DNA from: Pseudacidobacterium ailaaui
Lineage (GTDB): Bacteria; Acidobacteriota; Terriglobia; Terriglobales; Acidobacteriaceae
Length of the DNA: 64,000 bases
Reading direction: 5' to 3'
NCBI RefSeq assembly: GCF_000688455.1
Contig: NZ_JIAL01000001.1
Coordinates: 2,635,001 to 2,699,000 of the forward strand
In this document: positions 4,949-35,756 of the stretch, piece after piece
Layout: every line of letters begins with the position of its first letter
Position numbering within the stretch: position 1 is the first letter of the stretch
Made by a program: the position numbers and the translations under genes
Notes under the pieces: model-generated
What the model was told of the DNA's origin: nothing
The model's input: only the letters and a program-made list of their open reading frames with translations
The model's database searches: none

Positions 4949-5725
4949 TTACCAAACTTTGCGAAAAATGCGGTTCCAGCGGGCAAATCCGAGGATGCCA
5001 TGTGCTGAACCAGTACCGTGTCCGAGTCTATCATCCGGAAGATCGGGAACGGTGCTTGCTGGCTTCTGGCGCAGCGAAAAATAGATGATGAAAGGGCGTC
5101 CTACGATGTTCTGACGACGGACAAAGCCCCAGTAGCGGCTGTCGCGGCTGTGGTTGCGGTTATCACCAAGGACGAAATAGCTGTCTGGGGGTATGACCAG
5201 GTCGCCGTTTTGCACCTCTTTGCGCATCTCTGCCCACCATTGCATGTCTACGCCGGGGTCTGTGTACTGCAAAGTGGGAAATTCATCACGGTATTGGTCG
5301 GCATAGGAGCTTTGGTATTCAGCGTAAGGCTCGGGCAATGGTCTGCCATTCACAACGACCAGGCCATTGTGCAGGTGAATATGATCTCCGGGAAGTCCGA
5401 TGACGCGCTTGACCAGATGTTCTGCGGGATCAGGCGGGAAGTGGAAGACGATGATGTCTCCGCGTTGTACATTGCGATAGGGAATGAGCCAGTGCCAGAT
5501 TCCTGCGGGGGCGTAGACAGCCTTGTTTACCAGGAGGAAATCGCCAACCAGCAGTGTGTGCTCCATGGATTCTGAAGGAATACGGAAGGGCTGCACGATG
5601 AAGGTCAGGACAAAAAGTGCAATGACGATGACAGACAACATGGAGCGAAGCGCATCCAGAAGAGAAGGGTACAGATGAAGGTGCGGTTGCAGTTTTGTTC
5701 GAGACGCAGTCAGAATTTCAGTCAT
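4949..5725 (-). CDS. lepB: Signal peptidase I (first tandem copy)
   Basis: A 258-residue S26 signal peptidase with a single N-terminal transmembrane helix (about 28-46), catalytic Ser53 (IPSESMEHTL), Lys106 (KRVIGLPGD) and box E (LGDNRNHSRDSRYWGFV). Its ATG lies in the sequence ATGACTGA and overlaps the end of rnc by 8 bp, so it is translationally coupled to rnc. The rnc-lepB pairing is widespread in bacteria. Codons upstream of 5725 in the same frame belong to the rnc overlap and are not conserved. Confidence 0.93.
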   Translation of the reverse strand: MTEILTASRTKLQPHLHLYPSLLDALRSMLSVIVIALFVLTFIVQPFRIPSESMEHTLLVGDFLLVNKAVYAPAGIWHWLIPYRNVQRGDIIVFHFPPDPAEHLVKRVIGLPGDHIHLHNGLVVVNGRPLPEPYAEYQSSYADQYRDEFPTLQYTDPGVDMQWWAEMRKEVQNGDLVIPPDSYFVLGDNRNHSRDSRYWGFVRRQNIVGRPFIIYFSLRQKPASTVPDLPDDRLGHGTGSAHGILGFARWNRIFRKVW

Positions 5726-32162: not shown

Positions 32163-33113
32163 TTGATCTCCAGCCCGGTTACAAATACGGTAGGGAAGAA
32201 AGAATCCCTGAAGAGTGCGTCCCGCTATGCCTGGGTGGTAGTGGCGTACAATGTCGCTGTTATTTTGTGGGGTGCAATTGTCCGTGCAACTGGATCGGGT
32301 GCGGGCTGTGGCGAGCATTGGCCGCTGTGCAATGGCACCGTTATCCAGCATTCCCCACGCCTGGACACGCTCATTGAACTGACGCACCGCATGACCAGTG
32401 GAATTGCTTTATTGGCCATGCTGGTGCTGCTGGTATGGACGTTTTCCGTTACGGCAAGGGGCCACCTGGCACGTGTGGCCGTTAGTGCTGCTGGCATTCT
32501 TACCTTGAATGAGGCGCTGCTGGGTGCCTTGCTGGTCCTTCTTGGGAAAGTAGCGCACGACCAATCTGCCTCGCGAGCTGTCTATCTTTCCCTGCACCTT
32601 GCCAACACGATGCTTTTGATTGCTGCGCTGGCATTGACGGCACACTTTCTGTCGCGCCGCATCGACCCGATTCGGGGGCGTTTGCGCATTGATTCGCTGG
32701 GGACTGCCGTTCCGGGGATGCTGGCTACACTCTTTGTTGGTGTCAGTGGATCACTGGCAGCTTTGGGCGACACGCTTTTTCCGGCGGCCTCATTGCGTTC
32801 CGCCATCGCTGAGGACTTTTCTTCACGGAGTGCCTGGCTGATACGCATTCGCTGGCTTCATCCTACCCTTGCGGTGCTGGCAGGAGGCTTCATCTGCTGG
32901 CTGGTCTTCAGGAGTGTACAGCACAGGAGAAACCGGAGGCTGGCAATAGTTGTAGTGATGCTGCTTGCGGTGCAGTATGTTCTGGGGGTGGCGGACCTGA
33001 CGCTGCTTGCTCCGGTATGGATGCAGATTGTCCACCTCCTGGGCGCCGACCTGTTATGGCTCACTCTGGTTGTGCTGGCAGCCCGCATCTGCGTGGTTCC
33101 AGCAGAGCAATAG
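32163..33113 (+). CDS. ctaA: Heme A synthase CtaA
   Basis: A 316-residue membrane protein with about eight helices that oxidises the heme O methyl group to make heme A for cytochrome c oxidase. It has the cysteine pair in RATGSGAGCGEHWPLCNG (Cys49, Cys56) typical of one CtaA class, a heme-ligand His in ELTHRMTSG (His75), and further His in YLSLHLANT, RWLHPTLAVLAGG and VHLLGADLLWL. It uses a TTG start after AAGGACAAAGGCAG. No other oxidase-assembly gene is adjacent. Confidence 0.88.
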   Translation: MISSPVTNTVGKKESLKSASRYAWVVVAYNVAVILWGAIVRATGSGAGCGEHWPLCNGTVIQHSPRLDTLIELTHRMTSGIALLAMLVLLVWTFSVTARGHLARVAVSAAGILTLNEALLGALLVLLGKVAHDQSASRAVYLSLHLANTMLLIAALALTAHFLSRRIDPIRGRLRIDSLGTAVPGMLATLFVGVSGSLAALGDTLFPAASLRSAIAEDFSSRSAWLIRIRWLHPTLAVLAGGFICWLVFRSVQHRRNRRLAIVVVMLLAVQYVLGVADLTLLAPVWMQIVHLLGADLLWLTLVVLAARICVVPAEQ

Positions 33114-33161
33114 ACAGGCAAAGACGCTTCGGGGTCTGATTCAGGGTTTCAGCGTCGGCGA

Positions 33162-33198
33162 CCCAAAACAAAATGCCCCATCCAGAATGGATGAGGCA
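33162..33198 (-). terminator. Terminator of the thrC-moaD unit
   Basis: Read on the minus strand, an 11-bp stem (TGCCTCATCCA / TGGATGGGGCA, one mismatch) with a short loop is followed by TTTTGTTTT. It lies 20 bp after the moaD stop codon and ends the riboswitch-controlled transcript. Confidence 0.8.
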
Positions 33199-33217
33199 AA
33201 TACAGAGGAACCAGGAA

Positions 33218-33571
33218 TCAATAACAGGTACAGTCTTCCTGACCACAATAGGAGCAGCAGCGCAGGACAGGGCGCCGGGCAGAGCAATCGTCCGGGCAGC
33301 CGCCGGCGATGGAAGGAATGACGAGTACCTCGTCGCCATCTTTAAACGAATACTTCTCGTTGCCCAGGAAGCGGATATCTTCCTCGTTGACGTAGAAGTT
33401 GATGAAGCGGCGCACTTGTCCGGTCTCATCGCGCAGGTGTGTCTTAAGCGCGGGAAAATGTGCTTCGATGTCCTCAATCAGCGCAGGCAGGTTTGCAGCG
33501 GTGGATTGAATCTCCTTCGCGCCATTGGTGTGCTTTTGGAATGCATTGGGCAACAAAACTCTAACGGACAT
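33218..33571 (-). CDS. MoaD/ThiS-type sulfur-carrier protein with cysteine-rich C-terminal tail
   Basis: A 117-residue ubiquitin-like protein. Residues 1-91 match the MoaD/CysO type (SVRVLLPNAFQKHTNG, VRRFINFYVNEEDIRFLG, DGDEVLVIPSIAGG). Carriers of this kind normally end at the di-glycine, which is activated to a thiocarboxylate and donates sulfur. Here Gly90-Gly91 is followed in frame by 26 residues with seven cysteines (positions 92, 96, 105, 106, 109, 114, 116), so a protease (JAMM type in known cases) would have to expose the GG. It overlaps the threonine-synthase-like gene by 11 bp and lies downstream of a SAM riboswitch. A role as sulfur donor for homocysteine synthesis is inferred. 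Confidence 0.85.
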   Translation of the reverse strand: MSVRVLLPNAFQKHTNGAKEIQSTAANLPALIEDIEAHFPALKTHLRDETGQVRRFINFYVNEEDIRFLGNEKYSFKDGDEVLVIPSIAGGCPDDCSARRPVLRCCSYCGQEDCTCY

Positions 33572-34832
33572 CGATGCCTCCTGTTACCAGCTCGTTTAGT
33601 TCCTTGATTTCGTTGATGTAGTTTTCAAAATCGGTCAGACGCGGGCGAATGGCCTGCCCCTGCTCATAGGCGCCATGCAGAACGTCGGTCGTCTTCAGGC
33701 CGTTTCCGGTGATGCAGCTTACCGTCACCTCATCGGGCTGAATTCGGCCATGTGCGTAAAGGCGTGCAGTGACGGCAGTGGTAACGCCGCCAGCGGTTTC
33801 TGTAAAGACGCCTTCGGTTTCTGCAAGTTCCTGGATGGCGGAGACAATTTCTACGTCGGAGACATCTTCAGCCCAGCCGCCGCTCTCGCGGATGGCGCGC
33901 GCGGCATAGACACCGTCTGCGGGATTGCCGATGGCCAGTGAGCGCGCAATCGTCGAGGGCCGCTGCGGATCAATGTGGTCGGCGCCGGATTTCACGGCTT
34001 TTGCAATCGGCGAGCAGCCGGTGGCCTGCGCTCCAAAGAAGCGCACAGGCTTGTCTTCTACGAGGCCGAGGAGAACGAGTTCTTTGAATGCTTTGCGGAT
34101 CTTGGTGATGAGCGATCCTCCGGCCATGGGAACGACGACGTTGTCGGGCAGGCGCCAGCCAAGCTGCTCGGCGATCTCGTAGCCGACGGTCTTTGATCCT
34201 TCCGCGTAGTAGGGGCGAAGGTTGACGTTTACAAAACCCCAGTGGAAGCGGTCGGCAATCTGCGAGCAGAGGCGGTTTACGTGATCATAATTGCCGTCTA
34301 TGCGGATGAGGTTCGCACCGTAAACCTGGGTATTAAGGATCTTTGCCGCTTCAAGGTCGGCCGGAACAAGAATGTAGGTCTTCAGGCCGAGACGCGCCGC
34401 CTGGGCGGCCACGGCGTTGGCGAGGTTGCCAGTCGAGGAGCAGCCGACGGTGTCAAAGCCGAAGTCCTGCGCCGCGGCAAGGGCCACGGCCACTACGCGG
34501 TCCTTAAAACTGAGTGTAGGCAGGCATACTGCGTCGTTCTTGATGTACAGATTTTTTGCGCCAATTCTCTTGGCCAGACGCGGGGCCTTCAACAGAGGTG
34601 TCCAACCCGCAGGCGTCTGAGGGAGGTAATTTTCTGCGACCGGCAGCAGGGCCTGATAGCGCCACATATTGGTGGGACCCTGCGCAATCGTTTCCCGAGT
34701 CACCGTCTTTTTTGCGGCATCGAGATCAACCTGTACTTCCAGCGGCGAGAAACACTCGTCACAGATGGAGAGCGGCGCGTTCGCATATCGCTTGCCGCAC
34801 TCCCGACAACATAACTCGTAAGATGAAGCCAT
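33561..34832 (-). CDS. thrC: Threonine synthase family PLP enzyme (possible homocysteine-forming enzyme)
   Basis: A 423-residue fold-type II PLP enzyme. An N-terminal zinc-ribbon (Cys9, 12, 24, 27) precedes the core with the PLP lysine in PTLSFKDR (Lys110), the phosphate loop GCSSTGNLANAVAAQAA and VVPMAGGSLITKI. By family it converts O-phosphohomoserine to threonine. However, it is headed by a SAM riboswitch and its 3' end overlaps a sulfur-carrier gene by 11 bp, a context that fits sulfhydrylation to homocysteine. Sequence alone cannot decide. The ATG at 34832 is preceded by GAGGG inside a small hairpin; the frame stays open upstream to 35084, but that stretch is the riboswitch. Confidence 0.9.
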   Translation of the reverse strand: MASSYELCCRECGKRYANAPLSICDECFSPLEVQVDLDAAKKTVTRETIAQGPTNMWRYQALLPVAENYLPQTPAGWTPLLKAPRLAKRIGAKNLYIKNDAVCLPTLSFKDRVVAVALAAAQDFGFDTVGCSSTGNLANAVAAQAARLGLKTYILVPADLEAAKILNTQVYGANLIRIDGNYDHVNRLCSQIADRFHWGFVNVNLRPYYAEGSKTVGYEIAEQLGWRLPDNVVVPMAGGSLITKIRKAFKELVLLGLVEDKPVRFFGAQATGCSPIAKAVKSGADHIDPQRPSTIARSLAIGNPADGVYAARAIRESGGWAEDVSDVEIVSAIQELAETEGVFTETAGGVTTAVTARLYAHGRIQPDEVTVSCITGNGLKTTDVLHGAYEQGQAIRPRLTDFENYINEIKELNELVTGGIDVR

Positions 34833-34839
34833 CCTAGCC

Positions 34840-34854
34840 CTCGCAATCTGCGAG
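34840..34854 (-). promoter_or_regulatory. Hairpin overlapping the thrC ribosome site
   Basis: On the minus strand CTCGCA-GAT-TGCGAG forms a stem whose 3' arm merges with the GAGGG ribosome site 8 bases before the ATG. It could be the expression platform through which the upstream SAM aptamer blocks translation; no intrinsic terminator is seen between aptamer and gene. Confidence 0.45.
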
Positions 34855-35001
34855 CGGCGGTTGGGAACTCTCGCCGGGATACGGCCCAGCGAGTGCAAAA
34901 CTGCACGGGCACTGCGTGACGACCACTCTGATACAGCCTTACTGCTACTGCGTACTGCACTTACCTGGGATTTAGCGAGATGCGATACAACCTGCACCCC
35001 G

Positions 35002-35117
35002 AATCTCATGTATCCCACCCTTTTGGGTGAGCGAGAGTTGACACCGATGTCCCGAATTGCTCGGGCCGGTTGTCGTGGCGTCACAGGGCCCGTCCCTCAG
35101 CCACTCTGCATGAAATT
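35002..35117 (-). ncRNA. SAM riboswitch (SAM-I/SAM-IV clan)
   Basis: On the minus strand a 9-bp P1 stem (AATTTCATG / CATGAGATT, one G-U) closes a 116-base aptamer. Inside are the P2/kink-turn core GAGTGGCTGAGGGACGGGCC with its partner TGACGCCAC and CAACCGG, the P3 hairpin CCCGAG-CAAT-TCGGG, the J3/4 segment CGGTGTCAACTC and the P4 hairpin CACCC-AAAA-GGGTG, followed by GGATACATGAG. This is the S-box order and sequence pattern. It lies about 170 bases upstream of the threonine-synthase-like gene and should lower its expression when SAM is plentiful. The exact subclass (SAM-I, SAM-IV or SAM-I/IV variant) needs a covariance model. Confidence 0.87.
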
Positions 35118-35193
35118 CAGGCTCGCTCACACGGAGCAAACATGAATGATTTGTTTGTAACACAGGGAAAGAGTGAACGCAAGAGGGAAATTC

Positions 35194-35277
35194 AACTCGG
35201 ACAAAGTTCTTGAGGTGCTTTTGAATGCGGGGAGCGGGCTCGCGACCTGTCCATGCACAACTTTAAAAGTCCGAGGT
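35194..35277. repeat. Long-range bipartite inverted repeat, possible structured RNA or operator
   Basis: CTCGGAC-AAAGTT (35196-35208) pairs with AACTTT-AAAA-GTCCGAG (35259-35275): 13 base pairs interrupted by one 4-base bulge, around a 50-base GC-rich loop with a further GTGC/GCAC (35215, 35255). It lies between the SAM riboswitch and the Phd-like gene. The strand of any transcript is unknown. Confidence 0.5.
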
Positions 35278-35342
35278 AGCAAACGAAAACCCTCTCAAGT
35301 TATGATCGTCAAAAATAACAAAAGCAAAAAGAGGTCTTTGAA

Positions 35343-35756
35343 ATGAGCAAGATTTACATTTCATCTGCCGAAGTTGCACGCGATTTTTCCGAATATCTGA
35401 CGAAAGCCCAGAACGGGGCGCAGATCGTCATTCATGATGTCACCCCGCCCGTTATGCTTTGTATTGCAGAACAGGCCGTTAGAACGTCACTGTCTGCGGC
35501 TGGGGCAGCCGAGGACAAGTCACAGACAGAGCCAATACCCGCATTGCTGAACAGCTTCCCGGCCAGTGTGGAAGCAATCATCACGGTTGCCGAATCCATT
35601 GCCCAGCGGTATGGCGTATGTGCCACAGTCATCGATGACCAAACTGCGCGTACAAAAGAAATTCTTTGTTCCCCTCCGCGCCCAGAATCGGCGACTCAAT
35701 CTGGTCAATCCTCTGGCCGCCAAGCTTCTCCAGGCAACGACGTACTTTTTCCGTAG
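35343..35756 (+). CDS. Phd/YefM-like antitoxin-family protein, orphan, with overlapping 3' end
   Basis: The first 45 residues (SKIYISSAEVARDFSEYLTKAQNGAQIVIHD) match the DNA-binding N-terminus of Phd/YefM antitoxins. The rest of the 137 residues is not recognisable, and from residue 96 on the frame runs antisense to the last 128 bp of tlyA. Typical family members have 80-90 residues. No toxin gene follows. A good ribosome site (AGAGG) precedes the ATG. It may be a real gene with a read-through tail or one that lost its original 3' end and toxin. Confidence 0.6.
   Translation: MSKIYISSAEVARDFSEYLTKAQNGAQIVIHDVTPPVMLCIAEQAVRTSLSAAGAAEDKSQTEPIPALLNSFPASVEAIITVAESIAQRYGVCATVIDDQTARTKEILCSPPRPESATQSGQSSGRQASPGNDVLFP

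Follow-up and report, generated by a model that had tools for sequence, protein, structure and literature searches.

A SAM riboswitch-associated MetM/MetO-like gene pair predicted to make homocysteine in Acidobacteriota

A gene pair of Pseudacidobacterium ailaaui, located on the minus strand of the 64,000-nucleotide stretch of DNA analysed here (the window), very probably constitutes a SAM-repressed MetM/MetO unit that, judging by homology and genomic context, would form homocysteine from O-phosphohomoserine and a carrier thiocarboxylate. A preliminary description had proposed this route, and the proposal is supported by the match of the pair to MetM/MetO of Streptomyces albulus, as cited in PMC12172450, by the exclusion of MetX, by the presence of a separate thrC and by changed residues in the enzyme. 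Neither of the outcomes named in that description as contradicting it was obtained: a covariance model does match the riboswitch, and the genome does not combine a sole threonine-synthase-type gene with a complete conventional homocysteine pathway. Given the published MetM/MetO system and the riboswitch-metM-metO order in Nonomuraea, the mechanism and the layout are already known, of which the preliminary description was unaware. What is added here is the distribution of the unit in Acidobacteriota and the Cys-rich tail of its carrier.

Results

Organization of the riboswitch and the gene pair

The features of the unit, in the order in which they are read on the minus strand, are as follows.

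35003..35116, minus strand: SAM-I (S-box) riboswitch aptamer (RF00162, 79.1 bits, E 5.8e-17, full model)
34838..34854, minus strand: possible expression platform, a 6-bp hairpin CTCGCA/TGCGAG at 34840–34854 (from folding of the last 70 nt of the leader)
33561..34832, minus strand: metM-like gene, threonine-synthase-family PLP enzyme of 423 aa (PF00291, 232 bits; clade, residues and Foldseek)
33218..33571, minus strand: metO-like gene, ThiS/MoaD-type sulfur carrier of 117 aa (PF02597, 42.8 bits)
33221..33298, minus strand: C-terminal tail of the carrier, 26 aa past Gly90-Gly91 (CCSYC motif conserved)
33174..33198, minus strand: terminator-like hairpin with T-rich tail, about 20 nt past the carrier stop (by position only)

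A cmscan of the window matched the SAM-I model from position 1 to 108 at 79.1 bits (gathering score 44.4), confirming the complete S-box-type aptamer that had been placed at 35002–35117, with the edges moved by 1 nt. No other Rfam match above the gathering score was present in the whole 64-kb window, and no second RF00162 match was found anywhere in the 3.69-Mb genome. The 3′ arm of the 6-bp hairpin overlaps the Shine-Dalgarno-like GAGGG (34838–34842) upstream of the metM-like ATG, and resembling hairpins were recognized by eye in some near relatives. A hairpin at the ribosome-binding site hints at translational control of the metM-like gene, though only faintly, since folding of the surrounding stretch (34815–34935) exceeds that of shuffles by no clear margin (z −1.34). 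The entire leader, including the aptamer, does fold better than shuffles (z −3.07), and a terminator scan found no terminator-like site in the leader.

The enzyme and its separation from threonine synthase

The metM-like gene extends from the ATG at 34832 to a stop codon at 33561–33563; profile and sequence searches used a 422-aa query starting one codon past this ATG. The PF00291 match, a score above the TIGR00260 thrC cut-off and best NCBIfam matches to threonine synthase models bear out the earlier assignment of the product to the threonine synthase family of PLP enzymes. Its AlphaFold model (mean pLDDT 82.8), for which the best Foldseek matches were solved threonine synthases, confirms a predicted threonine-synthase fold and nothing further. 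In a core sample of 61 genomes, comprising P. ailaaui and 60 relatives, the enzyme belongs to a clade within the family that is separate from canonical ThrC, with scores of 441–955 bits and the next score at 245 bits. All 18 enzymes of alignment A1 share the lysine motif SFKDR without variation.

A residue alignment was made of 44 MetM-clade proteins (18 of the relatives' set, 25 from the 80 named loci described below, and Nonomuraea) and seven ThrC proteins taken from the same genomes. L136, N203, R205 and Y208 were found in all 44 MetM-clade proteins, and T, S, N and R occupied these positions in all seven ThrC; the canonical residues, which in the organism's own ThrC are T160, S227, N229 and R232, were absent from the clade (44/44). 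We take these four to correspond to T88, S155, N157 and R160 of Thermus threonine synthase, of which T88 and R160 are presumably catalytic and phosphate-binding.

The TIGR00260 score would also fit an enzyme that is a threonine synthase, perhaps with threonine deaminase side activity, and that has the carrier and riboswitch next to it incidentally; for a Microcystis homologue, PMC12172450 reports in vitro activity both as threonine synthase and as threonine deaminase. We consider this very unlikely. The P. ailaaui genome encodes a separate 454-aa ThrC in which the residues of other ThrC are retained and whose gene overlaps thrB (TIGR00260 and TIGR00191, both above cut-off), as well as a third threonine-synthase-type paralogue above the cut-off of the threonine synthase model NF006050, so that the enzyme gene is not the only one of threonine-synthase type in the genome. 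Moreover, repression of a threonine enzyme by SAM would make little sense, the carrier lies alongside the enzyme in most loci across phyla (among the best 80 of at least 585 relatives, plus Nonomuraea), and MetX is missing wherever the clade occurs in the 61 genomes. A true threonine synthase was rejected in view of the second thrC with the usual residues.

The sulfur carrier and its Cys-rich tail

The metO-like gene runs from an ATG at 33571 to a stop at 33218. The PF02597 match (42.8 bits) and the 11-bp overlap with the enzyme gene (33561–33571) agree with its description as an overlapping MoaD/ThiS-like gene. The Gly-Gly of the carrier (Gly90-Gly91) is internal, not C-terminal, and is followed by 26 residues that include the conserved motif CCSYCGQEDCTC (33224–33259, minus strand). 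Carrier-like matches, other carriers included, were obtained in 262 of 300 family genomes, and the tail was surveyed in the 30 best loci. In 26 of these (L187–L212), 16–42 residues follow Gly-Gly, ending in or beside CCSYC[GD]xE[DEN]CxC, and in the remaining four only 2–3 residues do. The five Cys, the Ser, the Tyr and the Glu of the motif were kept in 26/26 tailed carriers and the Gly in 25/26; the conserved positions show synonymous codon changes, and the linker between Gly-Gly and the motif is hypervariable. In a 38-enzyme tree, from which three short rows were omitted, three changes are needed to account for the tail; they may represent one gain and two losses.

The spacing of the Cys residues in the tail appears to resemble that of a zinc knuckle; AlphaFold gave a poor model of the carrier alone (mean pLDDT 52.7). 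As a tentative and somewhat doubtful suggestion, the module CCSYC-x2-E-x-C-x-C might bind zinc or a persulfide as a pro-domain or sensor, such that carrier activation, and hence homocysteine synthesis, would need processing by a JAMM protease and would respond to metal or thiol state; the carrier-NIL fusions of two other loci (L124 and L130, below) would then be a second, independent module. Co-occurrence of JAMM proteases is uninformative because 59 of the 61 genomes have one.

Downstream of the carrier, a hairpin of 11 pairs (33198–33174) is followed by TTTTGTTTTG. The hairpin and T-rich tail of the terminator proposed for this place are thus present, but there is no enrichment over shuffled sequence: a single terminator-like site was found in 32900–35500, and shuffles average 2.9. 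It is accordingly plausible by position only.

Distribution of the unit among relatives

Surveying the core sample for the order of riboswitch, enzyme and carrier, we found the enzyme clade in 39 of the 61 genomes. RF00162 was detected in 29 genomes, one copy in each, by a scan with stricter filters in which weak matches may be lost. The riboswitch lies directly upstream of a metM-like gene in 28 of them; that of G048 is at a contig edge, arranged as in G042, with the enzyme gene at the edge of another contig, and presumably belongs to the metM-like gene across the gap. The other 10 of the 39 units have no detected riboswitch (G005, G006, G012, G018, G022, G052, G055, G057, G058 and G060); in G006 and G022, a contig ends no more than about 205 bp from the unit. 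By tblastn, which was used for all counts of carrier presence in relatives' and wider loci, 28 of 30 relatives' loci contain a carrier, the exceptions being L014 and L015.

In 17 relatives' neighbourhoods, in which the naming of thrB and hom was checked on one locus (L085), thrB was near the unit in seven, hom in five, and either gene in eight; a second thrC was present in six. The window's own neighbourhood contains neither thrB nor hom, and thrB of this organism is elsewhere in the genome (L070).

The P. ailaaui genome also contains an operon (L177, about 1726741–1729723 of G000:C1) encoding a CysM-like enzyme, a JAMM protease, a second carrier ending in GGY, and a ThiF-rhodanese protein, which by their predicted functions can cover cysteine synthesis and supply candidate carrier-activating and processing enzymes. 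The operon bears on the idea that the unit makes cysteine from O-phosphoserine or O-acetylserine and a carrier thiocarboxylate, like Mycobacterium CysM/CysO. Carrier-dependent cysteine synthesis is well known, and SAM-I riboswitches can control cysteine genes, as the preliminary description also held. We regard this idea as extremely improbable, since a separate operon of the CysM type exists, units lie near thrB or hom in 8/17 neighbourhoods, and the exclusion seen is with MetX. Cysteine synthesis by the unit was rejected in view of the separate CysM-type operon.

Occurrence in other phyla

The wider set consisted of the best 80 of at least 585 relatives in a scan of named genomes. These 80 come from Acidobacteriota, Cyanobacteria, Nitrospirota, Nitrospinota, Desulfobacterota and other Deltaproteobacteria, Omnitrophota, Neomarinimicrobiota, Planctomycetota, Armatimonadota and Kiritimatiellae, and the cyanobacterial homologues among them are 55–58% identical to the window's enzyme. 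The actinomycete Nonomuraea has the order riboswitch-metM-metO and an enzyme 56% identical to that of the window. With Nonomuraea added to the best 80, a same-strand carrier was found in 74 of 81 loci, within 500 bp in 72. Two of the seven loci without one are at a contig end; in L137, L143, L144, L158 and L162, no carrier was found in the 1.5–4 kb of downstream DNA searched, and thrB (homoserine kinase, TIGR00191 above cut-off) directly follows metM in L137, L143 and L158.

A SAM riboswitch was present in 4 of 16 and in 2 of 10 wider loci scanned, and none was found in the other 12 and 8; in L130 it is about 2.3 kb upstream. One locus (L124) has the order riboswitch, metM, carrier-NIL fusion, two cysteine synthases, JAMM and ThiF/MoeB. 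The carrier-NIL fusion (PF02597 and PF09383) was observed downstream of metM at 5257–5772 of L124 and 6657–7142 of L130, the hosts being one Deltaproteobacteria and one Desulfuromonadales genome. In the wider phylum, RF00162 was detected in 78 of 199 genomes. Within flanks of at most 1.5 kb, 29 RF00162 loci contained metM (five), metY (two), another PF01053 gene (four), metX (one) or no query match (17). SAM-I riboswitches are not tied to metM in the wider phylum.

Other routes to homocysteine

MetX was called at 332 bits or more. All genomes, the 14 controls among them, score below the TIGR01392 cut-off of 500 bits, and we therefore drew our own line in the gap between 332 bits and the next score of 153. 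So called, MetX was present in 13/61 genomes and in 0/39 unit genomes (Fisher p 7.6e-8), in 0/19 unit genomes vs 12/18 others within the organism's own family (p 1.0e-5), and likewise excluded in 47 good assemblies (p 2.5e-7), by tests that ignore the relatedness of the genomes. The HcyBio route was ruled out, with HcyBio in 0/61 genomes. MetX, MetA and HcyBio are all absent from 32 of the 39 unit genomes. A MetA-family gene occurs in seven of the 61, all with the unit (G022, G024, G033, G039, G040, G045 and G047), showing that coexistence is possible; six of these also have MetY above its cut-off, of which the match in the seventh (476 bits) falls short. In nine genomes, none of metM, MetX, MetA and HcyBio was found (G002, G008, G011, G020, G023, G025, G046, G050 and G056). 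Several of the nine are near complete, and they may be auxotrophs or have a further route.

No complete conventional homocysteine pathway was found in the P. ailaaui genome, which has no PF04204, no HcyBio and no TIGR01326 (MetY) match above cut-off; its MetX-like protein scores only 131 bits, belongs to the alpha/beta-hydrolase family PF00561, and has all NCBIfam matches below their cut-offs. The genome has 11 matches to PF01053, the best being a 384-aa cystathionine-type enzyme. This protein falls below, but near, the cut-offs for gamma-lyase (512 of 594 bits) and gamma-synthase (502 of 513), and could in principle act as a plant-like cystathionine gamma-synthase that makes homocysteine from phosphohomoserine and cysteine, leaving the unit another role in sulfur metabolism. 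We give this very little credence: PF01053 matches, related enzymes included, occur in 61/61 genomes with or without the unit, and hence their presence offers no reason why the unit should replace MetX. In another genome, a PF01053 enzyme, a JAMM protease and MetX stand in a row (L180, G029:C6), possibly a Wolinella-like carrier-dependent homocysteine operon. A Met_synt_B12 domain was detected in P. ailaaui at 157.7 bits, in a match that crosses one stop codon, as it does in many relatives.

Discussion

Observed directly are the gene order, the riboswitch, the enzyme family, the conserved pairing with a carrier, the exclusion of MetX in the sample, the separate thrC and the remodelled residues. 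The MetM/MetO reading is tempered by MetA in 7/39 unit genomes, by carrierless loci, by units without a riboswitch and by the PF01053 enzyme. Under the MetM/MetO reading, the SAM-I riboswitch in the leader would sense SAM and lower expression of the metM/metO pair, probably by hiding the ribosome-binding site. The MetO carrier would be activated at Gly-Gly by adenylation and thiocarboxylation, probably through the ThiF-rhodanese protein of the genome, and in this organism the Cys-rich tail would have to be removed beforehand or handled in some other way. MetM would take O-phosphohomoserine from the hom-thrB branch and eliminate its phosphate on PLP; addition of the thiocarboxylate sulfur to the gamma carbon would then yield homocysteine, a substrate that a B12-type methionine synthase could methylate.

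Carrier-dependent sulfur transfer has several precedents. In Wolinella HcyS/HcyD/HcyF, a protein thiocarboxylate donates sulfur for homocysteine, the PLP enzyme being of the MetY type (fold I) and the substrate an acylated homoserine. The window's enzyme, in contrast, is of the threonine-synthase fold-II type (PF00291), and the genome has no TIGR01326 match above cut-off. Mycobacterium CysM/CysO/Mec+/MoeZ combines a carrier with a fold-II PLP enzyme of the cysteine-synthase subfamily, the product being cysteine. The window shares the combination of fold-II enzyme and carrier, but its enzyme matches threonine synthase models, not the cysteine-synthase subfamily; the make-up of the Mycobacterium system is found elsewhere in the genome, in the L177 operon.

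In the Streptomyces system, thiocarboxylated MetO is reportedly the sulfur donor. MetM of S. albulus is a threonine-synthase-related homocysteine synthase (Hasebe et al. 2024, doi 10.1128/aem.01247-24, as cited in PMC12172450) that, according to the same source, uses O-phosphohomoserine, adjoins a sulfur-carrier gene and has a SAM riboswitch upstream. The window resembles this arrangement in its threonine-synthase-type enzyme, adjacent Gly-Gly carrier and upstream SAM riboswitch; it differs in that the host belongs to Acidobacteriota, not Actinomycetota, and the carrier has a 26-residue Cys-rich extension past Gly-Gly.

A caution comes from Microcystis aeruginosa, whose ThrC is 51.6% identical to MetM and has a sulfur-carrier neighbour (Kim et al. 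2025, PMC12172450). According to that paper, this gene has no SAM riboswitch, whereas the window has one; MetM activity is unproven, and full MetM function is doubted in threonine-treated cells. Taken with the in vitro activities noted above, this doubt argues against a simple transfer of function. The Microcystis enzyme probably belongs to the same clade as the window's: in Microcystis novacekii, a homologue (L135) shares 56% identity with the enzyme of the window, and the carrier downstream of it ends in Gly-Gly. A literature search, covering part of the literature, found no title or abstract on such a unit in Acidobacteriota.

The MetM/MetO reading would explain homocysteine formation in Acidobacteriota genomes that have no MetX, MetA or HcyBio. 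By the same reading, some of the threonine synthase annotations in Acidobacteriota, Cyanobacteria, Nitrospirota and other phyla probably stand for genes of methionine synthesis, with L136, Y208 and an adjoining carrier as sequence marks that separate MetM from threonine synthase. With its Cys-rich tail, the carrier also poses the testable question of how its activation is controlled.
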